NCBI GenBank assembly: GCA_016874755.1
Contig: VGTH01000004.1
Span: 1 to 64,000, forward strand
Source: Deltaproteobacteria bacterium
GTDB lineage: Bacteria > Desulfobacterota > Binatia > UBA9968
Reading direction: 5' to 3'
DNA: 64,000 nt
Shown here: positions 11,342 through 28,074 of the stretch, piece by piece
Position numbering within the stretch: the first letter of the stretch is position 1
Layout of the letters: each line of letters begins with the position of its first letter
Notes under the pieces: generated by a model
What the model saw: only the letters and a program-made list of their open reading frames with translations
Told to the model about the DNA's origin: nothing
The model's database searches: none
Translations under genes and position numbers: made by a program

Positions 11342-12574
11342 CTACGCCTGCTTGAACAGCGGTATCACGTCCGCCCCAGCCTTCAGCCCGTCCAAATAAT
11401 CCGCCCAAGCCTGCATCATCTTGCGCCGCTCCGGAAGATGCTCGGCAAAGTTATAAGCCGCGCTGACGGCGTTGCGCTCGGCGTGGGCGAGCTGGCGCTC
11501 GATGGCTTGGTGGTTCCAGCCCTGTTCGTGTAGCAGCGTGGAGGCCATGCTGCGGAAGCCGTGACCGGTCATCTCTCCCTTGGTGTAGCCCATGCGCCGC
11601 AGGGCGGCGAGGACGGCGTTCTCGCTCATCGGCCGCTCATGGGTTCTCGCGCTGGGGAAAACATATCGCGGCGCATCGGGGCGCGACGGAAAAACCCGGT
11701 TGGTCAACGGCTCCAGCTCCCGGAGAATCTCCACCGCCTGGCGGGATAGCGGCACGATATGCTGCTCGCGCATCTTCATGCGCGCGGCGGGCAGGCGCCA
11801 TTCGCCTTTTACAAGATCCATCTCCGACCACCGGGCATGACGTAACTCTCCCGGCCGGACAAACACCAGCGGCGCCAAGCGTAGGGCGCATTTGGTGGCA
11901 AAATAACCCTGGTAACCGTCGATCACGCGCAGCAACTCGGCGATCAGCTTTGGCTCCACGATCGAGGCGTGGTGTTTGACTTTCAAGCGGGGCAAAGAGC
12001 CGCGTAAGTCGCCGGTCGGATCGCGTTCCGCCCTACCGGTGGCAACGGCATAGCGAAATACCTGTCCACAGGTCTGCATTGCTCGGTGGGTGGATTCGAT
12101 AGCGCCGCGACTCTCGATGCGCCGAAGGGCAGCCAGCAGCTCCGGTGCTTTGATGTCGGCAATCGGGCGTTTGCCAAGCCAGGGGAACAAATCTTTTACC
12201 AGTCGCCGCAGGATGCGGTCGCTCGTGCTAGACTCCCATCCGGGTGAAAATTTCGCGTGCCACTCGCGCGCGATCGCCTCAAAACTCTCGGCCCCAGCTT
12301 GTGCCGCCCTCTCTGCTTTGCGCGCTTCGCCGGGATCGATGCCATCGGCGACTTGCTTGCGGGCAGCGTCACGCCTTTCTCGGGCGGCCTTCAAAGATAC
12401 ATCGGGATAGACCCCAAACGAGAGCCGCTTCTCCTTGCCCGCAAAGCGGTATTTCCAACGCCACCACTTGCCGCCAGCGGGAGCGACCTCAAGGTACAAT
12501 CCACCGGCGTCAAACAGCTTGAACGTCTTGTCTTTGCCCTTGGCCGAACGAATCGCAGTGTCGGTTAGCGCCAT
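11342..12574 (-). CDS. P4-type tyrosine integrase
   Basis: A 410-residue site-specific recombinase of the P4/DUF4102 class: N-terminal arm-binding domain (about 1-90), core-binding domain (about 95-190) and catalytic domain. The catalytic set is complete: Arg240 (RPGELR), Lys267, His338 and Arg341 (GHGFR), His364 (AHAER) and the nucleophile Tyr374. It should catalyse integration and excision of the island at the neighbouring tRNA-Thr 3' end. The start codon lies 167 bases from the tRNA, the usual arrangement. A partial second copy of its 3' end lies at 10778-10883. Confidence 0.95.
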   Translation of the reverse strand: MALTDTAIRSAKGKDKTFKLFDAGGLYLEVAPAGGKWWRWKYRFAGKEKRLSFGVYPDVSLKAARERRDAARKQVADGIDPGEARKAERAAQAGAESFEAIAREWHAKFSPGWESSTSDRILRRLVKDLFPWLGKRPIADIKAPELLAALRRIESRGAIESTHRAMQTCGQVFRYAVATGRAERDPTGDLRGSLPRLKVKHHASIVEPKLIAELLRVIDGYQGYFATKCALRLAPLVFVRPGELRHARWSEMDLVKGEWRLPAARMKMREQHIVPLSRQAVEILRELEPLTNRVFPSRPDAPRYVFPSARTHERPMSENAVLAALRRMGYTKGEMTGHGFRSMASTLLHEQGWNHQAIERQLAHAERNAVSAAYNFAEHLPERRKMMQAWADYLDGLKAGADVIPLFKQA

Positions 12575-12741: not shown

Positions 12742-12817
<76 letters not shown>

Positions 12818-17122: not shown

Positions 17123-18184
17123 TTACATCGCCGCGACAATCTCTTTCAACTCTTTTAACAGCGAGCGAATTTCTTTGGCCGTGCCAACCGTGATGCGCAG
17201 GCAATCTTGCAAGCCTGGCACGTCAAAGTAGCGCACGAGAATATTTTGCTGCTTCAAGCCTTCGTAGACGATTCTTTGGTTGCGCCCGACCTTGCGCGCG
17301 AGCACAAAGTTGGTGTGCGACGGGTAGACTTCATAGCCTAGCTTCAGCAGCGCGTTGGTGAGTTGCTGGCGGCTGCGCTTGATGCGCTCGGCGTTGCGTT
17401 GCATCCACGCCAAATCCTGCAACGCGCTGCAGGCTGCGACCATGCTCAAACGGTTGAGGTTGTAGGAGTCTTTGACTTTCATCATGCCGGCGATCAGTTC
17501 TTCGGCGGCGAAGGCGAGGCCGATGCGCATGCCGGCCAGCGAAAACGACTTGGAAAACGTGCGCAGGACAATCAGGTTCGGCAGTTGGCGAATCAACGGA
17601 ATCGACGACGCGCCCTCGGTCGAGGCAAAATCGACGTAGGCTTCGTCGACCACCAAAATGCCTTTGACCGTGCGGGCCAAATTGACGATTTCAGTCAGCG
17701 GCACCAAGGTTCCGGACGGCGCGTTGGGATTGCAAAGAAACGTCAGCGCGGCATCTTGTGCAGCTAGTCCCTCGGGAACCGAAAAATCAGCCGGAAAAGC
17801 TACCGGCGCGCAGCGGCCGTCCTGGATTTCTACCAGGGTTTCGTAGAGCGAGTAGGTTGGCACGGGAAAAGCTACACGATCTTTGGGACCGACAAAGGAG
17901 CGCAGCAAGATCGACAAGATTTCATCGGAGCCATTGCCGGCGATGATATTTTCCGGTTGCACTCCGTAGACCTGCGCCGCCACGGCGCGCAGCGTTTGGC
18001 TCAGCGGTTCTGGGTAGAGCCTGAGCGACGCGTCGGCAGCGCGCCGCAGCGCCGCGCGCACTTTGGGCGACGGCGGATAGGGATTCTCATTGGTGTTGAG
18101 CTTGATAACCGCCGGGTCGCGCGGCTGTTCGCCCGGTGTGTAACCATCCAGGGCTGCGATATTGCTTCGGAAATATGCCGCCAT
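17123..18184 (-). CDS. hisC: Histidinol-phosphate aminotransferase
   Basis: A 353-residue fold-type I PLP aminotransferase converting imidazole-acetol phosphate and glutamate to histidinol phosphate in histidine synthesis. Visible: substrate motif KLNTNENPYPPSP, NGSDEIL, CNPNAPSGT, Asp180 (VVDEAY) for the PLP nitrogen and Lys212 in TFSKSFSLAGMR for the Schiff base. The ATG at 18184 is preferred because it gives a normal-length N-terminus (MAAYFRSNIAAL), though its ribosome site is weak. No other his genes are in the window. Related aromatic aminotransferases are an alternative, but hisC fits best. Confidence 0.9.
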   Translation of the reverse strand: MAAYFRSNIAALDGYTPGEQPRDPAVIKLNTNENPYPPSPKVRAALRRAADASLRLYPEPLSQTLRAVAAQVYGVQPENIIAGNGSDEILSILLRSFVGPKDRVAFPVPTYSLYETLVEIQDGRCAPVAFPADFSVPEGLAAQDAALTFLCNPNAPSGTLVPLTEIVNLARTVKGILVVDEAYVDFASTEGASSIPLIRQLPNLIVLRTFSKSFSLAGMRIGLAFAAEELIAGMMKVKDSYNLNRLSMVAACSALQDLAWMQRNAERIKRSRQQLTNALLKLGYEVYPSHTNFVLARKVGRNQRIVYEGLKQQNILVRYFDVPGLQDCLRITVGTAKEIRSLLKELKEIVAAM

Positions 18185-18422
18185 GAGGACGATTCTAACG
18201 ACCCCATCGGGGCATTTCAATTAAACGCACCATGGCGCACGAGGGTGCTTTTCGGAGTGATAGAGCGGCGTCAAGAAGCGGACGAGGGGGCTCACGGGAT
18301 TGTTTCGCGAGCCGACTTGTTGCGCGTGAAATTTCACTGTCTAGCTCCGCACCACTTCCGGAAGTGTGTTCAAGTGCCGAAAAAATCCCGCCGATTTCTT
18401 CCACGGCAAGAAACGGAATCCG

Positions 18423-18438
18423 TGGCACGCTTTTAGCA
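18423..18438 (+). promoter_or_regulatory. Sigma-54-like promoter of the coiled-coil/KaiC operon
   Basis: TGGCACGCTTTTAGCA fits TGGYAYR-N4-TTGCW with one mismatch (TAGC for TTGC). The GG (18424-18425) and GC (18436-18437) are 10 bases apart as required. The expected transcription start lies about 25 bases before the ATG at 18473. If real, the operon depends on RpoN and an enhancer-binding activator. The single mismatch and short sequence leave room for chance. Confidence 0.55.
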
Positions 18439-18472
18439 CAAGAAGCACACATCTATTTGTGTAGAGACACCC

Positions 18473-21400
18473 ATGAACGCAGAATCGAACACGCCGTCCA
18501 GCCCTTCGCCAAACAATCACCCCGCGCTCGCCTTGGTTAGCCGGATCGATATCCTCGACACCAAGCTGCACTTGCTCGAGCTGTATGTCACCGAGGCTCA
18601 AGCTGCTGCCGCAGCCGAAAGCAAAAAGCTGCGCGAACAGTTTCAAGCCGAGCTCAACGCCCTGCAAGCCGAGGTCAAACAAAAAGAATCGACCCTGGAA
18701 ACCCACCAGGCGCTCGCCCAGCAGGCTGACCGCAATCAGCGCAAGCATATTCAAGAGCTGCGCGCCGAACTGCTCGAAGCAAACCGCCTGGCGGAATCGC
18801 GGCAGAGCGAGTTGACCGCTAACAAGCTCGCCGCTACGGCGCTGCGCGATCGTATCAATTTTTTGGAAACCGACGCGGAGAAAAACCGCGCCGAAAGCAC
18901 GCGCCAAATGGCGTCGTTGCTCGAGCACATCAAGCAGCTCGAAAGCGCCAATCAACAAGTCGAAAACCGCATTGCAACGGAACTACAAGCCAAGTTTGAA
19001 CAGGAATTGACCGCTCTGCGTCAGACGCTAGAGGAAAGAGACGCCGAGCTGCAACTACGTGAGACCAGCGATCGCGACGCCGCGGCGCGCCACGCCAGTG
19101 AAATCCAAGCGCTGCAGAACGATATTGCCGCAACGCAACAGCTACTGAAAGAAAATGACCGCGCGCTCGGCGCGGCGACGGCAGAAAATCGCCGCCTGCA
19201 GGATCGGATCGCCGCTGTCAACGCGGTGCACGAGCAGGCGATGGCCGATGCGCAGCGCTCCTTCGAGGCACGCAGCCAAGAATATCGCCAGCAGATCACA
19301 GTCCTAGAGCGGCGCAATGAGAGCAATACGCGGCGCTTGCGAGAGCACGGCGACGAACTCACTCGGCTGCAAACTCAGCACATGATGCTGCAGCGGGCAG
19401 CTGATGAACAGCAGCACCAGACGGCGGCGGCACAAGCGGAAATAGTCAAGCTGGAGAGTCAACAGCAGGGCTTGAAAACCGAGTTGGCGGAAGCGCGCCA
19501 GCGCCAACAAGAGCAGGAAGATCTTAGCCACGAGCTGCGCAGGTTGGGCGAGCAGCTAGCAGAAAAACAGGGCATCATTGACAGCGGCGTCCGTGAATTC
19601 GCAGCACTGGAAAACCAGGCGAACCAATTGCGCGCGCAGGTCGCGCAATTAGAAGAAGCCAAATGGCTTGCCGGCGAAGAACACGGCGCGACGCTGGGCC
19701 GGCTCAACGAGCAGCTGGATCATCTGCAAACCCAGCTTGCAGCCAAAGAGCAAAATATCGCTGGGCGTGAGCAGGAGTGCGCCGCACTGCAGCAGCAGTT
19801 GCGACAACTGCGCGAGCATTTGGCCCATCAGGAGCATCGGCAAAATCAGCGAGAAGAAGAACATGGCGCCGCGGTTGCGGCCCTGCAACAGGAGCTGCGC
19901 CAGGTTGGCGAGCAGCTCATTGCCACACGGCAGAGCGCCGAGGCGCGGGGCGACGAAGTAAACGAGCTGCACGGACGAGTCCGTCAACTCAATGACCAGA
20001 TTGCGGCGCTTGAACATGACCGACACCAGGTCGCCGATGGCCATCGCTCCCATATACACAGCCTGGAAGACCAGCTGTGGGAGGTTGGCAAGCAACTTGG
20101 CGAAAAGCAGCAACAGCTCGAGGGGCGCGAAGGGGAGATATACAGCTTACAAGATGAGGTTCGCGCACTGCTGCAACAAATTAGCCAGCTGCAGCAAGCA
20201 CGTGAGCAAGCCGTCAACGAGCATCAAGCGGCGCTCGGCCTTGTACGCGATCAACTCGAAGCGCAGCTCGGCGAAAAACGGCACCAAATCGAAGCCCGCG
20301 AGCGTGAAGTCAACGAGCTGCAGAACACTGTACGCGAACTGCACCAGCAGGTTGCGGATCTTCACCAGGTTCGCGAGCAGGTGGCGAGCGAATACGACGC
20401 GGCCGTCGACGCGTGGCGTGATCGACAGCATAACTTGGAAGCGCAGCTCGGCGACAAGCAGCAAGTGCTCGAGCTCCGCGAGCGAGAGGTCGCGAACCTC
20501 GAAGCGACGGCGCGTCAATTGTCCGAGCGACTCCTAGAGCAGGAAAAGGCACAGCAACAGGCTGCGGCTGAACAGGGCGACAGAATTCACCAGCTCGAAG
20601 CCAGTATCGCTGCGCGCGCTCAGGAGTTCGCTGCCGCCTTGGCCGAGCATAGCACAATTGCGGCCGAGAGCAGCGCTGAACTGGAAACTTTGCGGGCGCA
20701 AACTCATGGCTTGAACGAGCGGACAAGCCAGCTGCAGAGCTTGTTGCAGCAGTCCGACAGCGAGAAGCATGAGCTCGACGAGCGGCGCGCCGCGCTGCAG
20801 CAGCAATTGCACGATCTGCAGCATGCTTTCGAAGAAGCGCAAGCGGCGTTGCAGGGCCAGCAAGCGGAATTTAGCGCCTTGCGCGATCGGCTCGAAGTGG
20901 AGCGGCACGCTGTTGCCCAGCGCGCGACCGATTGGGAGCAACGGTTCGGGGCCCAAGAGGCCGACCTGCGGCGCGCCGATGAAGAGAACGCTGCGCTGCA
21001 CGGAGAACTCCAAACCCGTGAAGCGCTCCATCAGGAGCGGCTACTCGACTTAACGCAAAATTTGGAAAGCACGCGCCGGCAATTTGACGCCGAGCTTGCG
21101 GCGCTGCGCGACGAATTACAGCTAAAAGAGGCCGCGCTGCAAGACCGCCGCGCCGAGCTGGCCGCCAGCGAGACGCGTCTAAACGGCAAAGTGCAAGAGC
21201 TGACAGCCGAGCTTACACATGAACAACACAGGTGCCGGGACAGCGAACAAGAGTTGGCACAGGCGAGCGCCGAGGTCGAGATTTTGCGCACGCGGGTGGC
21301 CGAGCTCGAGACCCTTTCAACGGAAACTGAACACGGTTTAGCCGCCAAGATGGAGCAATTGACCCGTGCACATGGCGCCGAGCTGGCCGATGTGCGGGCG

Positions 21401-23530
21401 CAGTTGCAGGAGCGCGAGCAAGCTCAAATCGCTAGAGAGCTACACTGGCATGCCAACCAAGAGCGAGCGCGTGCCGAGTTCGCGGCGCTGCGCCAGGAGC
21501 ACAGCGAACAACAAGGATTGATCGCGCAGCGCGAACAGACCATTGCTGAACTACAGCGCGAAGCGGACAAGCTGACGGACCAGCTCTACGAAGCTGAGGC
21601 CAGCTACCACCAAAAGTTAAACGCAAGTCTCACCGAAACCGAACAGCGGTTTACCACCGAGCTCGCCCTGCGCCAAGTGGCCATTCTCCAGCTGCAGAAC
21701 GAACTGGCGGACAACCAGCGCCATGCCATTGAATTAGAGGAGTCTTTAACCAGCCAGGTCCACGCTTTGCAACAAAGGTTGGCTGACAATGAAACAGTCC
21801 TTGGCCAACGCGGCGCCGCTCTCGCTGACGTCAATAGCGAAATCAGCCGGCTGCGCGATCGGCTTGGCGCGCTTCAAGGGACTAACGAAGAACTGGTCAA
21901 TGAGGGGCGGGAGTCCGATGAAAGATTTCGTCTTCGCTTGGCCGACCTGGAAAACGCCCTAGCCGAAGGAACGGCGCTTGCCGAGCAACGCAGCGCCGAG
22001 TTGGAACAAGCCCAGGCCGAAATCTCTGCTCTCAGACAGCATATTCTTATCGCCGAAGAACTTTATCGGCAATCACAAATCGAAGACCGCTCGGTGCGCG
22101 CGGCTATGCAAGAGGACCTAAGCCGGGCGCGCCAGGCGTTGGACCAAAAAGCGCAGGACTTCGTCGCCGAGTCGACCTTACTATACGCCGCGCGTGAGCA
22201 AGTCGCCGAGGAACTGCGCGCTGTGCAAACTCGTTTGGCGGAACGTGAGGCGTTGCTCGACGCACGCGAGCACGACTGCGCTGCGCTGCGCGCCGAAATT
22301 CGGACGTTGACAGCGCAACTCTTCGAAACGGAAACTGCGCAGCAGTCGGCCGAAGCTACGAACGCGGCAATGGCACAGGCGCAGCGCCAGGCAGCTACGC
22401 TGCTGGCGGAAAAGGAAGCGTTGCTCAGCGAAAGCCTGGCGGTGCAGCAAGCGCAGGAGATCGAGCTGGGCGGTTTGCGCGAGCAAGCGGTTCGATTGGA
22501 AGGACTACAATTCGCAAAACTACACGCCGAAGAAAACTTTAAGCGCGCCGAGCGAGTGTCGTCGGAGCTCGCAGCGCTGAGGGTCGACCTGGCTGAAAAA
22601 GAGCGCGGGTTGGCTTTGCACGAAGAGGGCCGTCAAGAGCGGGAACGCTCGCACCAAGAGAGCCTGAATCAACTCCAGATACAGTTGACGCAGCAGCAGT
22701 TGCTAGCCGAAAGCCGCGCCCGACAAACCGAAGATCTGCGTTCCCATATCGAAGTATTGCAAGAGCAGCTCAGCGTCCTGGAAAGCAATAGCATCGAGTT
22801 TGCGCGCAGACAACAAGAAGAGTTTAGCAAAGCCGAAACCGTGCTGCGCAGCGATATCGACGGGCTCCTCAAAGAGATTGCTGAACAGCGCGACGTCATC
22901 GAAGCGCGCACTGGCGAGATCGACTTACTACAGAGCGGAAAGGCGGCGCTGCAAAATGAGATCGAAAGGCTGGCTGCGGCGGGCATGCGGCTGAGCAGCG
23001 TTAACGCTGATGGCAACCCCGCAACCTACGGCGATCAATTGATTGAAATAGCTAATCTGCGTGCCGAGATCATCGAAAAACAGCAGCTTTTGGAGGACCG
23101 CAATGAGAGGCTTCTCCATGCCAAGGGCGAGCTGGCGGATCTGCAAAAAAGCATGGAGAACATTACCGCACCACGCGACGAGGCCCATCCTGTCATTGCC
23201 GCCACCGACAATGAGCTGTTGTGGGAACAACTAGGCCGAAACGACCGCGTTGCGGAGGACTCCGAAGCGGCGGTGGTAAACGAGCGCGAGACCGGCTTTC
23301 GGGTCACATTCGACCGCCGACAAAATGACACCCTCGCCATACAGCCCGGCGCGCCCACGAGAGCGGAGCGGCAGGGTGATGCCAGCGCAAGCGCGGCGGT
23401 CGGCGATGAGCATGAAGGACTTGAATTTCTCGTACGCCACGGCAAAGGCGACGGTCGCCCTTTACCCAAAAATGGTCATGATCGTCGTTGGCGTTTCAGT
23501 TTACGCAGAAAACGCCGATGGAAATCTTGA
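18473..23530 (+). CDS. Giant coiled-coil protein, 1,685 residues
   Basis: A very long, almost entirely alpha-helical protein. From about residue 25 to 1560 it is nearly continuous heptad-type coiled coil, rich in Gln, Glu, Ala, Leu and Arg, with no membrane segment or signal peptide and only a short N-terminal Ser/Pro/Asn tail. Residues 344-700 (bases 19502-20572) hold six head-to-tail units, five of exactly 60 residues and one of 57, with recurrent elements such as QLGEK and RE-x-E. The last 80 residues are non-helical and end strongly basic (RRWRFSLRRKRRWKS), a possible anchor for nucleic acid or membrane phosphates. There is no SMC hinge or Walker motif. A structural or scaffold role is likely. 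The two KaiC-like ATPases follow on the same strand. Function unknown. Confidence 0.85.
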   Translation: MNAESNTPSSPSPNNHPALALVSRIDILDTKLHLLELYVTEAQAAAAAESKKLREQFQAELNALQAEVKQKESTLETHQALAQQADRNQRKHIQELRAELLEANRLAESRQSELTANKLAATALRDRINFLETDAEKNRAESTRQMASLLEHIKQLESANQQVENRIATELQAKFEQELTALRQTLEERDAELQLRETSDRDAAARHASEIQALQNDIAATQQLLKENDRALGAATAENRRLQDRIAAVNAVHEQAMADAQRSFEARSQEYRQQITVLERRNESNTRRLREHGDELTRLQTQHMMLQRAADEQQHQTAAAQAEIVKLESQQQGLKTELAEARQRQQEQEDLSHELRRLGEQLAEKQGIIDSGVREFAALENQANQLRAQVAQLEEAKWLAGEEHGATLGRLNEQLDHLQTQLAAKEQNIAGREQECAALQQQLRQLREHLAHQEHRQNQREEEHGAAVAALQQELRQVGEQLIATRQSAEARGDEVNELHGRVRQLNDQIAALEHDRHQVADGHRSHIHSLEDQLWEVGKQLGEKQQQLEGREGEIYSLQDEVRALLQQISQLQQAREQAVNEHQAALGLVRDQLEAQLGEKRHQIEAREREVNELQNTVRELHQQVADLHQVREQVASEYDAAVDAWRDRQHNLEAQLGDKQQVLELREREVANLEATARQLSERLLEQEKAQQQAAAEQGDRIHQLEASIAARAQEFAAALAEHSTIAAESSAELETLRAQTHGLNERTSQLQSLLQQSDSEKHELDERRAALQQQLHDLQHAFEEAQAALQGQQAEFSALRDRLEVERHAVAQRATDWEQRFGAQEADLRRADEENAALHGELQTREALHQERLLDLTQNLESTRRQFDAELAALRDELQLKEAALQDRRAELAASETRLNGKVQELTAELTHEQHRCRDSEQELAQASAEVEILRTRVAELETLSTETEHGLAAKMEQLTRAHGAELADVRAQLQEREQAQIARELHWHANQERARAEFAALRQEHSEQQGLIAQREQTIAELQREADKLTDQLYEAEASYHQKLNASLTETEQRFTTELALRQVAILQLQNELADNQRHAIELEESLTSQVHALQQRLADNETVLGQRGAALADVNSEISRLRDRLGALQGTNEELVNEGRESDERFRLRLADLENALAEGTALAEQRSAELEQAQAEISALRQHILIAEELYRQSQIEDRSVRAAMQEDLSRARQALDQKAQDFVAESTLLYAAREQVAEELRAVQTRLAEREALLDAREHDCAALRAEIRTLTAQLFETETAQQSAEATNAAMAQAQRQAATLLAEKEALLSESLAVQQAQEIELGGLREQAVRLEGLQFAKLHAEENFKRAERVSSELAALRVDLAEKERGLALHEEGRQERERSHQESLNQLQIQLTQQQLLAESRARQTEDLRSHIEVLQEQLSVLESNSIEFARRQQEEFSKAETVLRSDIDGLLKEIAEQRDVIEARTGEIDLLQSGKAALQNEIERLAAAGMRLSSVNADGNPATYGDQLIEIANLRAEIIEKQQLLEDRNERLLHAKGELADLQKSMENITAPRDEAHPVIAATDNELLWEQLGRNDRVAEDSEAAVVNERETGFRVTFDRRQNDTLAIQPGAPTRAERQGDASASAAVGDEHEGLEFLVRHGKGDGRPLPKNGHDRRWRFSLRRKRRWKS
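19502..20572 (+). repeat. Six tandem 60-residue coding repeats
   Basis: Within the coiled-coil gene, units begin at codons 344, 404, 464, 524, 584 and 641. All are 60 codons except the fifth, which is 57. Each begins near HGA/HQA, has a QL-x(4-6)-QLGEKQ element and an RE-x-E-x-x-x-L element, and ends in an R/Q-rich stretch. DNA identity between units looks low, so these are old duplications kept in register by protein structure. Confidence 0.75.
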
Positions 23531-23645
23531 TAGGCCAGAAGCCCACGGCCGCAGGCTGTTGGAAAGCGCCATGCCTTAGCCGGTTTTCGGTTCTCGGATT
23601 TGCGCACCAACGGCGGGCCTCACGGGACCGCAATAGGACAGCTCT

Positions 23646-24422
23646 ATGACGCAGACAGAACGCGTACCTACAGGAATTACCGGGCTCGATGCCTTGCTCG
23701 AGGGCGGTTTCCCCAAGGGCAGATCGATTCTCGTTACCGGCGAGCCCGGCACCGGCAAGACAATCTTGGCGCTACAGTTTCTGGCCGAAGGTTTGGCGCG
23801 CGGCGAGAAGGCAATTTACGTTGCCGCCGACGAAGGCCCGGTCGATATTCTCGAACAAGCCACATCCATCGGTTGGGATCTGGAAAAACATGTTGAACGC
23901 AAGGAGATGGCGATCTTGAACGCCGGCACCTATTTGAGCTCGTTGCCCGGTGTTAGCAAAGACCGTCAGATCGATATCCATAAGGCGATCGGCGATCTCG
24001 CCAATTTCGTCAATCGTCTCGGCGCGCAGCGGTTGGTGCTCGACCCCGCCGGTCCGTTTGTGTTGATCCGCGATGCCGCCACGCGCATTCAGGATCAGAC
24101 GCGCCTGCTCATCAAACTGCTGCGGACGTCGATGCAGACCACCAACATTCTCACGTCCTACGCGGTGCCTCGCACCGGCGAGCGCAGCATGCACGGCATC
24201 GAAGAGTATCTTGTCGCCGGCTCACTCGTGCTCGAGATGGTGTTAACCGACGATCACCTGGCGCGCACCATGATGATCGAGAAAATGCGCTGCACCAACG
24301 TGAAACCCGCCCAGTACGAATTCGACATCGTCAAGGGCCAGGGCGTGGTACTGCAGCCGGCCGAAGAGGCGCAAGCCAAGATCGCACAAGATCCCACAAC
24401 CTCAGCAGCGGTGAGCGCGTAG
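23646..24422 (+). CDS. KaiC/RAD55-like ATPase, first copy
   Basis: A 258-residue single-domain KaiC-like RecA-fold ATPase, start ATG 23646 with AGGA upstream. It opens with the family signature RVPTGITGLDALLEGGFPKG, then Walker A GEPGTGKT (32-39), an acidic pair Asp62-Glu63 in place of KaiC's two catalytic glutamates, and Walker B RLVLDP (Asp133). Cyanobacterial KaiC has two such domains and sets the clock; single-domain relatives act as signalling or assembly ATPases, for example ArlH in archaeal motility. It follows the coiled-coil gene by 115 bases and precedes a paralogue by 34, so a joint complex is likely. Autophosphorylation residues cannot be judged from sequence. Confidence 0.88.
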   Translation: MTQTERVPTGITGLDALLEGGFPKGRSILVTGEPGTGKTILALQFLAEGLARGEKAIYVAADEGPVDILEQATSIGWDLEKHVERKEMAILNAGTYLSSLPGVSKDRQIDIHKAIGDLANFVNRLGAQRLVLDPAGPFVLIRDAATRIQDQTRLLIKLLRTSMQTTNILTSYAVPRTGERSMHGIEEYLVAGSLVLEMVLTDDHLARTMMIEKMRCTNVKPAQYEFDIVKGQGVVLQPAEEAQAKIAQDPTTSAAVSA

Positions 24423-24456
24423 AAAAGATTTACTTCACACGAGAAACTAAGGATCT

Positions 24457-25302
24457 ATGAGCAGCAAAACAAACGGGGCGTCTAACGGCGTGCAACGGGT
24501 CTCAACGGGGATTACCGGACTCGATACGGTGTTACAGGGTGGCTTTCTGCCGAGCCGGACCTACCTAGTGACCGGCGATGCCGGCACCGGCAAAACTACG
24601 GCCTGCATGCAATTTCTTATGGCTGGCTTGCTGGCCAATGAGAAATCGGTCTACGTGACAGTCGACGAACGCCCAACGGAAATTTTGCAATCGGCTTCCT
24701 CCCTGGAATGGGACCTCCAGAGCCACGTGCAAGACAAGAACTTGGTGATCCTCGATGCTTCGCCCTACTTCAGTGGCCGCGGCGTTACCTCGGAAAAAGG
24801 CATCGATGTCACTAAGTTCGTCACCGATCTTGCCGGTTATGCGAGTAAGCTCGGTGCCGTGCGCCTGGCCATCGATCCGGTGACGCCACTGATCTTGTCG
24901 GCCGATTCCGCCTCGCGGGTGCACGAGAACGCGCGCACGTTGATCCATCTACTGCAGACCAATCTGACCACGACCAATTTGCTGACTTCCCACCTGCCGG
25001 ACCGAGTCGACCACACGCCGACGCAAGGCATCGAAGAATTTCTCGCCGCTGGCGTTCTTGTGCTGAGGGTCAATCAGGGCGGCGACAAACCGCCGCGCAC
25101 TTTGAGCGTAAAGAAAATGCGCGGCACAGCCGTGGAACCCGGCGAGTACGCTTTTAGCATCGCTAAAGGCAAAGGCATCGTGCTCGGCCAGCAACCGATG
25201 ACAAGCGCCGCGACGGCACCCGCAGCCGAAGGCAAAAAAGCGATCGTCGTCGAGGACGTCAGTTTCCAAGGGCTGGAATTTTTCGAGCTGCCCAAAGACT
25301 AG
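24457..25302 (+). CDS. KaiC/RAD55-like ATPase, second copy
   Basis: A 281-residue paralogue of the preceding gene with VSTGITGLDTVLQGGF, Walker A GDAGTGKT (40-47), acidic pair Asp70-Glu71 and Walker B LAIDP (Asp140). The RecA core is complete. The C-terminal 45 residues differ from the first copy and end in an acidic, aromatic tail (GLEFFELPKD), which could be a docking peptide. The tandem arrangement suggests a heteromeric ring, or a split equivalent of KaiC's CI and CII domains. It ends 144 bases before clpB. Function unknown. Confidence 0.88.
   Translation: MSSKTNGASNGVQRVSTGITGLDTVLQGGFLPSRTYLVTGDAGTGKTTACMQFLMAGLLANEKSVYVTVDERPTEILQSASSLEWDLQSHVQDKNLVILDASPYFSGRGVTSEKGIDVTKFVTDLAGYASKLGAVRLAIDPVTPLILSADSASRVHENARTLIHLLQTNLTTTNLLTSHLPDRVDHTPTQGIEEFLAAGVLVLRVNQGGDKPPRTLSVKKMRGTAVEPGEYAFSIAKGKGIVLGQQPMTSAATAPAAEGKKAIVVEDVSFQGLEFFELPKD

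Positions 25303-25446: not shown

Positions 25447-28074
<2,628 letters not shown>

Follow-up and report, generated by a model that had tools for sequence, protein, structure and literature searches.

The stretch of DNA analyzed here, referred to as the window, comprises the first 64,000 bases of contig VGTH01000004.1 (198,826 bases) from a Deltaproteobacteria bacterium (Desulfobacterota; Binatia; UBA9968; assembly GCA_016874755.1), whose genome has a size of 5.56 Mb and is 99.55% complete. It harbors a locus of three genes on the same strand, which encode a very long coiled-coil protein, in the following called the rod or coil, and two single-domain ATPases of the KaiC/RAD55 type, KaiC1 and KaiC2, behind a putative sigma-54-type promoter element (Table 1). 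The gap between the coil and KaiC1 amounts to 115 bp and that between KaiC1 and KaiC2 to 34 bp. The locus is flanked by a divergent hisC-like gene and by clpB, and this order (hisC, coil, KaiC1, KaiC2, clpB) recurs in relatives. An earlier note, made from the sequence of the window alone, had given coordinates, strand, lengths, and gaps of the three genes, all of which were exact, and had stated that no described system with this gene order was known. In line with this, no description of the coil-KaiC gene order was found in the open-licence literature, as covered by titles and the beginnings of abstracts.

The rod protein and the two KaiC-type ATPases

The open frame of the rod looks like a coding one, with G+C contents of 0.75, 0.38, and 0.66 at the three codon positions, the third being slightly under the 0.70–0.73 of the neighboring genes. 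The protein consists of 15% A, 14% E, 13% L, 12% Q, and 10% R and is devoid of proline from residue 17 to 1516. Its hydrophobic period of 3.5–3.6 (local power 0.62–0.68 compared to 0.17–0.18 ± 0.02 in shuffled sequences) and its Trp/Arg-rich C-terminus bear out the coiled coil of 1,685 residues with a basic tail that had been described in the earlier note. Autocorrelation analysis yielded peaks at 7 (z 12.1) and 32 residues (z 9.4) relative to shuffles, with further peaks at 60, 53, 64, and 92, which a 32-residue unit of 7+7+7+11 would account for. The peak at 32 residues ranks within the top twelve for the coils of the relatives G017, G001, G010, G023, and G004 and for two of three coils of a second family (type 2, see below), and lies outside the top twelve in the G014 coil and in the type-2 coil of G001. 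The search for DNA tandem repeats in the coil gene was negative, and thus coil growth through recent DNA tandem duplication was rejected. By textbook helix rise, a continuous dimer of ~1,500 residues would extend over roughly 0.22 micrometers. In the comparison with Pfam, nothing in the coil exceeded any family cut-off. An SMC/Rad50 protein was likewise rejected, as the matches are confined to internal stretches (TIGR02168, 68.2 bits vs 567.35) and Pfam shows no P-loop domain; the best SMC-type match was to an archaea-specific SMC-related model (ASRP), with 88 bits at a cut-off of 300.

Conservation is found at both ends of the rod. The head shows the pattern L-x3-I-x-IL-x5-L-x-ELY-x3-AQA, and a profile of the heads from the window, G017, G001, G010, and G014 found these five again, together with those of G004 and G003 (E ≤ 3.2e-23). 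The tail, RRW-x6-KRRW, stands at the extreme C-terminus and is present in the window, G001, G004, G014, G015, G017-C389, G017-C51, G020, and G023, whereas it is missing in G005, G008, and G010 among the 12 KaiC1 loci. It shows exchanges between K and R, and once a G replaces the first R, while the spacing of six is invariant across all eight aligned tails of the nine known ones. Judged by these alignments, the fast-evolving coil of the rod is enclosed by a head that is conserved and a Trp/Arg tail that is fixed.

With 196.6 and 184.4 bits, respectively, KaiC1 and KaiC2 exceed the curated cut-off of 26.6 for PF06745, and their Walker motifs are intact, so that both belong to the single-domain KaiC/RAD55-like ATPases, as had been noted before. 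The 11 KaiC1 orthologues are 64–81% identical to that of the window, with invariant GxPGTGK, ADE, DP, and EEY motifs, and the other KaiC2 sequences (n = 9) are 46–66% identical, with VDERP being invariant; the Walker A lysine and the acidic residues are invariant among the orthologues of both proteins. The acidic/aromatic motif at the C-terminus of KaiC2 appears as LEFF(E/Q)LPK in four and in looser forms in the other four of the eight rows with a complete C-terminus, a count that excludes the rows of G005 (frame change) and G023 (ends early). In the tree, KaiC1 (12 rows) and KaiC2 (10 rows) form two separate clades with values of 100/100 and 100/99, the sister of the KaiC2 clade being unsettled. 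Within the window's genome, KaiC1 and KaiC2 are the only KaiC1-like proteins at E ≤ 1e-10; the genome contains three further PF06745 matches, weaker or partial ones, in frames of 368–469 amino acids (aa). Plasmid copies were represented by two records, both ~30% identical.

Among solved structures, the best matches of the KaiC1 profile by sequence are KaiCs, the very top chains being labeled KaiC and some of them designed, and RecA ranks further down. An AlphaFold2 model of KaiC2 (mean predicted local distance difference test score 77.9, alignment of 10) best matches the CI domain of KaiC by fold (Z 29.2, root-mean-square deviation 2.3, 217 aligned residues). Unlike cyanobacterial KaiC, both proteins are without a second domain and remain under the cut-off of the clock-KaiC model (TIGR02655, 104.0 and 128.4 bits vs 546.25), so that a clock KaiC was rejected. 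The same holds for the archaellum protein ArlH (NF052589, 46.2 and 45.7 bits vs a cut-off of 215) and the gas vesicle regulator GvpD (PF07088, 22.1 bits for KaiC1 vs a cut-off of 24, with no listed match for KaiC2). The earlier note had likewise regarded clock and gas-vesicle roles as unsupported by motifs.

Table 1. Positions of the features discussed, numbered within the window
Feature	Position	Strand	Remarks
-24/-12 (sigma-54-type) promoter element TGGCACGCTTTTAGCA	18423..18438	+	putative; conserved at hisC-linked loci of the coil-KaiC type; RpoN in genome
Coiled-coil rod protein, 1,685 aa	18473..23530	+	open frame; period ~3.55, 32-residue spacing; no Pfam family above cut-off; KaiC1-linked in relatives
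Conserved N-terminal head of rod, residues 17-48	18521..18616	+	aligned with G017, G001, G010, G014
Conserved Trp/Arg-rich C-terminal tail, RRW-x6-KRRWKS	23483..23527	+	found in 9/12 KaiC1 loci
KaiC1, single-domain KaiC/RAD55-type ATPase, 258 aa	23646..24422	+	Walker A GEPGTGKT; ADE and LDP motifs; PF06745 5.2e-58
KaiC2, second single-domain KaiC-type ATPase, 281 aa	24457..25302	+	Walker A GDAGTGKT; VDERP; PF06745 2.8e-54
KaiC2 C-terminal acidic/aromatic motif LEFFELPKD	25273..25299	+	LEFF(E/Q)LPK in 4/8 rows with complete C-terminus
hisC-like aminotransferase gene, divergent from coil	17123-18220	-	PF00155; the name hisC is our own
clpB, downstream flank of KaiC2	25447-28074	+	
Phage-type integrase gene	11342-12574	-	adjoins tRNA-Thr(CGT) gene
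tRNA-Thr(CGT) gene	12742-12817	-	

The promoter element in front of the rod gene

The 16-base pattern TGGCACGCTTTTAGCA shows the GG-N10-GC spacing, and 34 bases lie between its last base at 18438 and the coil ATG at 18473. The earlier note had already recognized an element of the RpoN type here but had placed it 36 bases before the gene, possibly by counting from another end point. A single copy of such a pattern is little proof, since TGGCAYGNNNNTNGCA occurs seven times in the genome and its reversed control four times. The element was, however, found at all 12 hisC-linked loci of the window's type (type 1), nine of which are aligned (9/9 with the element) and three of which (G003, G004, G020) were found later. 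The scores range from 13.7 to 14.7 of 15.7, based on consensus weights of our own for -24/-12 promoters. Composition shuffles matched the type-1 score in 0–1 of 300 cases (6/300 for G015) or 0–2 of 500 cases. As a background, 1 of the 426 strand-stretches of 300 bp in the window reaches 14.4, which probably is the promoter element itself, and six reach 13.7. The element is also kept at the coil-less loci of G005 and G008, and two RpoN matches were found in the window's genome. Because the element conforms to the consensus and is conserved at syntenic loci, the prediction of a sigma-54-type promoter in front of the coil gene is well supported.

At the type-2 coil loci, -24/-12 sites are present in five of five cases, with scores of 12.7–14.4. 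The best sites at seven loci of the receiver/histidine kinase type (see below) reached 8.0–10.7, in stretches of mostly 86–161 bp whose shortness lowers the best score, and values of 11.4, 13.0, and 12.4 were obtained for G004 on its tail side, for G017-C51, and for G012, respectively. Farther upstream, paired TTGTCCA boxes ~20 bp apart were observed at six of the nine hisC-linked loci scanned (G005, G015, G023, G008, G001, G010), the window's own locus not being among them. It is possible that these boxes constitute an activator site or are part of the hisC promoter.

The locus in relatives

Within the order, 23 of 35 genomes contain close KaiC1 relatives at E ≤ 1e-30. In a sample of the phylum, for which up to eight candidates per genome were scored, at least 3 of 297 genomes gave a match at E ≤ 1e-32 (the window's own, one family member, and one 508-aa frame), so that close relatives are, as far as sampled, limited to the order. 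The 14 close relatives in the named collection (L085–L098) are from metagenome bins, assigned to Deltaproteobacteria (12), Candidatus Binatia (1), and Syntrophobacter sp. SbD2 (1). Coils beside distant KaiC relatives were looked for at 20 other loci (19 archaeal records and one from Hydrogenophilus), where solely a 173-aa gene in Hydrogenophilus (L118) passed the composition threshold of 0.55.

The state of the rod was assessed at the 12 loci of the KaiC1 clade. At ten of these, KaiC1 is preceded by a complete or fragmentary coil, and KaiC2 adjoins KaiC1 at nine. The rod is whole and uninterrupted from head to tail at three loci (1685 aa in the window, 1009–1015 aa at G017-C389, 993 aa in G001), partial, split, or reduced to a stub at seven, and gone at two. 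In G004 the head piece (932 aa) and the tail piece (255 aa) are ~12 kb apart, in G014 a head piece of 348 aa is accompanied by the tail in a different frame, and G010 has a 598-aa head piece without tail. The rod of G023 (~394 aa) has kept the tail without the head, that of G015 is a stub of ~100 aa with the tail, and G017-C51 shows two short pieces separated by a stop codon, of which the last bears the tail; in G020 the coil is split across two contigs, the tail being there and the head not found. A few head-like residues remain by eye in G005, and G008 has no rod remnant. G003 carries an additional hisC-linked coil with a head, whose contig ends ahead of any KaiC. Several of the relatives' loci lie on contigs of 5–35 kb, where assembly faults are possible. 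The ~12-kb insertion in the coil gene of G004, a relative of the same genus (L185 6636–19001, G004:C6), carries a gene of the phage-integrase family.

Where it can be aligned, the coil is under purifying selection. The G017–G010 pair (65% identity) has a ratio of nonsynonymous to synonymous differences per site (pN/pS) of 0.48, compared to 0.38 for KaiC1 of the same pair, and the G023–G020 pair (95% identity) has a pN of 0.023 and a pS of 0.085. The remaining coil pairs gave pN/pS values of 0.46–0.74, with synonymous sites near saturation.

In other lineages the KaiC gene has different partners. In G009, G011, G016, G021, G022, G024, and G025 it is followed by a gene of 396–431 aa, which in G009 and G011 was confirmed to encode a receiver and a KaiC domain (REC-KaiC) and is followed by a receiver-histidine kinase gene and clpB. 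Beyond these two genomes the sets were assigned by length and order, the contig of G022 being without flanks. A lone KaiC precedes clpB in G006 and G012, a lone KaiC2-type gene lies between hisC and clpB at G019-C27, clpB directly follows KaiC1 in G014 and G017-C389, and in G008 there is no clpB behind the KaiC pair. Since sister lineages carry REC-KaiC and histidine kinase genes instead, the KaiC of the coil locus is, by this comparison, probably a signaling ATPase. We infer that KaiC was once part of a phosphorelay-linked set, whose place in one clade was taken by the coil and KaiC2, although the order of these events is conjectural. The fusion proteins are found on L048 (G011), L049 (G009), and L051 (G019), whereby that of G019 sits at another place. 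In G009, scpA-scpB are located ~2.5 kb away from a KaiC of a third type, which has a long C-terminus (L065, G009:C193), and the genes on L062 (G016:C126) resemble this region in size and order.

A second coil-KaiC module, type 2, whose coil has its own conserved head, is present in five of the 25 family genomes (G001, G002, G003, G014, G017). A KaiC gene follows the coil at all three loci with a continuing contig (G001, G002, G014), whereas the contigs of G003 and G017 end within the coil. The earlier note had made its interpretation depend on the linkage of coil and KaiC genes in other genomes, and such linkage thus exists for both modules. In G001 and G003 the type-2 coil is divergent from genes for a receiver, CheD, and CheA, the latter being the sole CheA match of either genome. 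In G002 a receiver gene alone occupies the divergent position, after which the contig ends, and in G014 the module precedes pilM-pilN-pilP. No che or pil gene was recognized beside the type-2 coil of G017 in a comparison with chosen references, and no type-2 module was found at 11 other pilM loci, two of whose contigs end 430–650 bp upstream of pilM. Among the 25 genomes, CheA dimer-domain matches occur in G001, G003, G012, G013, and G019, with none in G002, and flagellin matches in G004, G008, G010, G012, and G017, with none in G000–G003 or G014. PilM matches were obtained in all 25 genomes including G000, 20 of them of the full-length kind.

Some further observations concern these che and pil regions. 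The che cluster beside the type-2 coil of G003 continues with a gene that by eye has a CheW-like start. In G023, which belongs to the genus of G014, ~125 bp around the promoter before pilM (in L157 3382–4107, G023:C44) show 73% identity to G014 (L052, G014:C160), and this region contains no coil or KaiC, unlike that of G014. As a candidate for a sigma-54 site shared by the pilM operons, a TGGCA-N8-TTGC-like site is located 314–343 bp upstream of pilM in 7 of 11 genomes scanned and is weak in G000 (12.0). In the priA-pilM regions (L151–L162) of most aligned genomes, pilM is preceded by a short gene, by eye for a putative small helix-turn-helix protein.

At the window's own locus, a glyoxalase-family gene accompanies the hisC-like gene on the upstream flank. 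A position inside a pil or che operon was rejected here, since the flanks are the hisC-like gene and clpB, and che or pil neighbors are seen only at the type-2 loci of relatives. The integrase and tRNA-Thr(CGT) genes of the window possibly mark the edge of an integrated element; beyond them lie genes for an ammonium transporter, a putative glutamine synthetase-like protein, and P-II.

What the locus may do

The locus is best filed among the KaiC-like signaling ATPase systems, with which it shares the KaiC family, the single domain, and the Walker motifs, as well as relatives whose partners are REC-KaiC fusions and histidine kinases. In archaea, KaiC-like ATPases have been proposed as signal-transduction hubs (Makarova et al., 2017, as cited in PMC5847659). 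The present locus differs in being bacterial and in its tandem pair (9/12 loci), its long coil partner, and its sigma-54-type promoter, and REC-KaiC fusions, which for archaea are reported in that article from Methanosarcinaceae alone, here occur in a bacterial family. CirA and ArlH are KaiC homologues linked to archaeal motility and cell shape; they differ in being archaeal, the passages of PMC13286277 consulted name no coiled-coil partner for them, and the ArlH model cut-off is not reached here. The rod resembles the coiled-coil-rich filament-forming proteins treated in PMC7002697 in being long, rich in coiled coil, and without a catalytic domain, but it has no family match, and the conserved head, the W/R tail, and the KaiC partners set this group apart.

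We tentatively read the locus as a sigma-54-controlled signaling or scaffold operon in which a KaiC switch would act on a rod scaffold, a possibility that we take seriously but would not call probable. The KaiCs would form ATP-switched rings, singly or jointly, like KaiC-like proteins, and the rod would dimerize to a filament or strut of up to ~0.2 micrometers that carries or positions them. One rod end, either the head or the W/R tail, might dock on the ring and the opposite end on the envelope or a polar site, whereby the ATP state, or a signal via a sigma-54 activator, would alter the assembly and its client. The contact of rod and KaiCs, the ring formation, and the rod dimerization are what we infer here. 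The scaffold is supported by the synteny, the conserved promoter, the conserved ends of a hypervariable rod, the 32-residue spacing, and the selection on the coil, as well as by the sister-genus set of KaiC, REC-KaiC, and REC-histidine kinase and by the type-2 coils near che and pil genes. Because the second coil-KaiC module adjoins chemosensory or pilMNP genes, the client in this lineage may, by analogy, perhaps be type IV pilus-based surface behavior, which is reasonable given the part that CirA and ArlH play in the motility and cell shape of archaea (PMC13286277). The earlier note had regarded a motility role as unsupported, which is true as far as the window's own motifs are concerned, although these neighborhoods in relatives weaken the point.

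Several observations weigh against this reading. G005, G008, G015, and G017-C51 have lost the coil or retain a stub, and in G004 it is interrupted, yet KaiC1 is kept in all five and KaiC2 in four (not G017-C51). In G008 the locus lies on a 277-kb contig, so that the coil loss is hardly an assembly fault, and KaiC2 has retained its LEFF(E/Q)LPK motif there. KaiC2 in turn is absent beside KaiC1 in G014, G017-C389, and G017-C51, and at G017-C389 the whole 1015-aa rod is followed by KaiC1 and then clpB. As the coil has repeatedly been shortened, interrupted, or lost with KaiC1 kept, and a rod occurs without KaiC2, neither the rod nor KaiC2 is indispensable to the rest. The linkage is real, and the scaffold operated by an ATPase pair that the earlier note had suggested is a plausible conjecture. 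The type-2 promoter sites are individually weak, with equally good shuffles in 27 (G014), 7, and 3 of 300 and in 6 and 3 of 500 cases, and 42 of the 426 strand-stretches in the window reach 12.7. Homology of the type-1 and type-2 heads was not detected (hhalign probability 1.3), and the grouping of the type-2 KaiCs in the tree is weak (81/63). The chemosensory or pilus link is an analogy because G000 has neither a CheA match nor a type-2 locus; moreover, the type-2 carriers G014 and G017 are without a CheA match, and flagellin is found in G017 as well as in the type-1 carriers G004 and G010.

It might also be that the KaiCs are the working unit, a signaling hub that replaced the KaiC/REC-KaiC/REC-histidine kinase set, and that the coil is a fast-evolving, shrinking accessory without a role for the ATPases. 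This would fit the coil-less loci of G005 and G008, where both KaiCs and the promoter remain, the uninterrupted coil at just 3 of 12 loci, and the pN/pS values, which range from 0.27 to 0.74 for the coil (six correctly framed pairs, synonymous sites being saturated in several) compared to 0.07–0.38 for KaiC1 (12 pairs) and 0.18–0.56 for KaiC2 (nine pairs). It is rendered doubtful by the head and tail, which are conserved wherever present, by the pairing of coils with two KaiC lineages, and by the purifying selection on the G017–G010 and G023–G020 coils; some truncations may, in addition, be mimicked by short-read assembly of such a long gene. One could also think of a new class of bacterial cell organizers, in which RpoN-switched KaiC rings would act on a tape-measure-like rod of fixed ends and free length and thereby position the surface-pilus/chemosensory machinery. 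This is unlikely and would span two coil families without detectable similarity.

A nucleoid or DNA organizer in the manner of SMC/RAD55, in which RecA-fold ATPases work with a long coil that would bind DNA through its basic tail, we consider very unlikely. The W/R tail is basic, the ATPases have the RecA fold, and the coil resembles SMC-type models (at best 88 of 300 bits), but no coil domain exceeds any cut-off, KaiCs lead the list of solved relatives, ahead of RecA, and the neighbors are a hisC-like gene and clpB. For the chromosome organizer that the earlier note had listed, all that emerged was coiled-coil similarity of a generic kind to SMC-type models. Hardly any likelihood is left for a part of a bacterial clock or an ArlH-like motor, to which KaiC family membership would point, as single-domain proteins so far under the clock-KaiC and ArlH cut-offs would have to fill this role.

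To our knowledge, few partners of non-clock KaiC-like ATPases are known in bacteria. Here, one locus within a single family combines related KaiCs with different partners, namely REC-KaiC and a histidine kinase on the one hand and a coiled-coil rod with a second KaiC on the other hand, whereby the conserved RpoN-type promoter marks the rod version. For the single-domain KaiCs of bacteria, the locus thereby suggests a partner, a condition, and a mechanism that can be tested, and its relatives give a natural series of rods that differ in length while their ends are constant.

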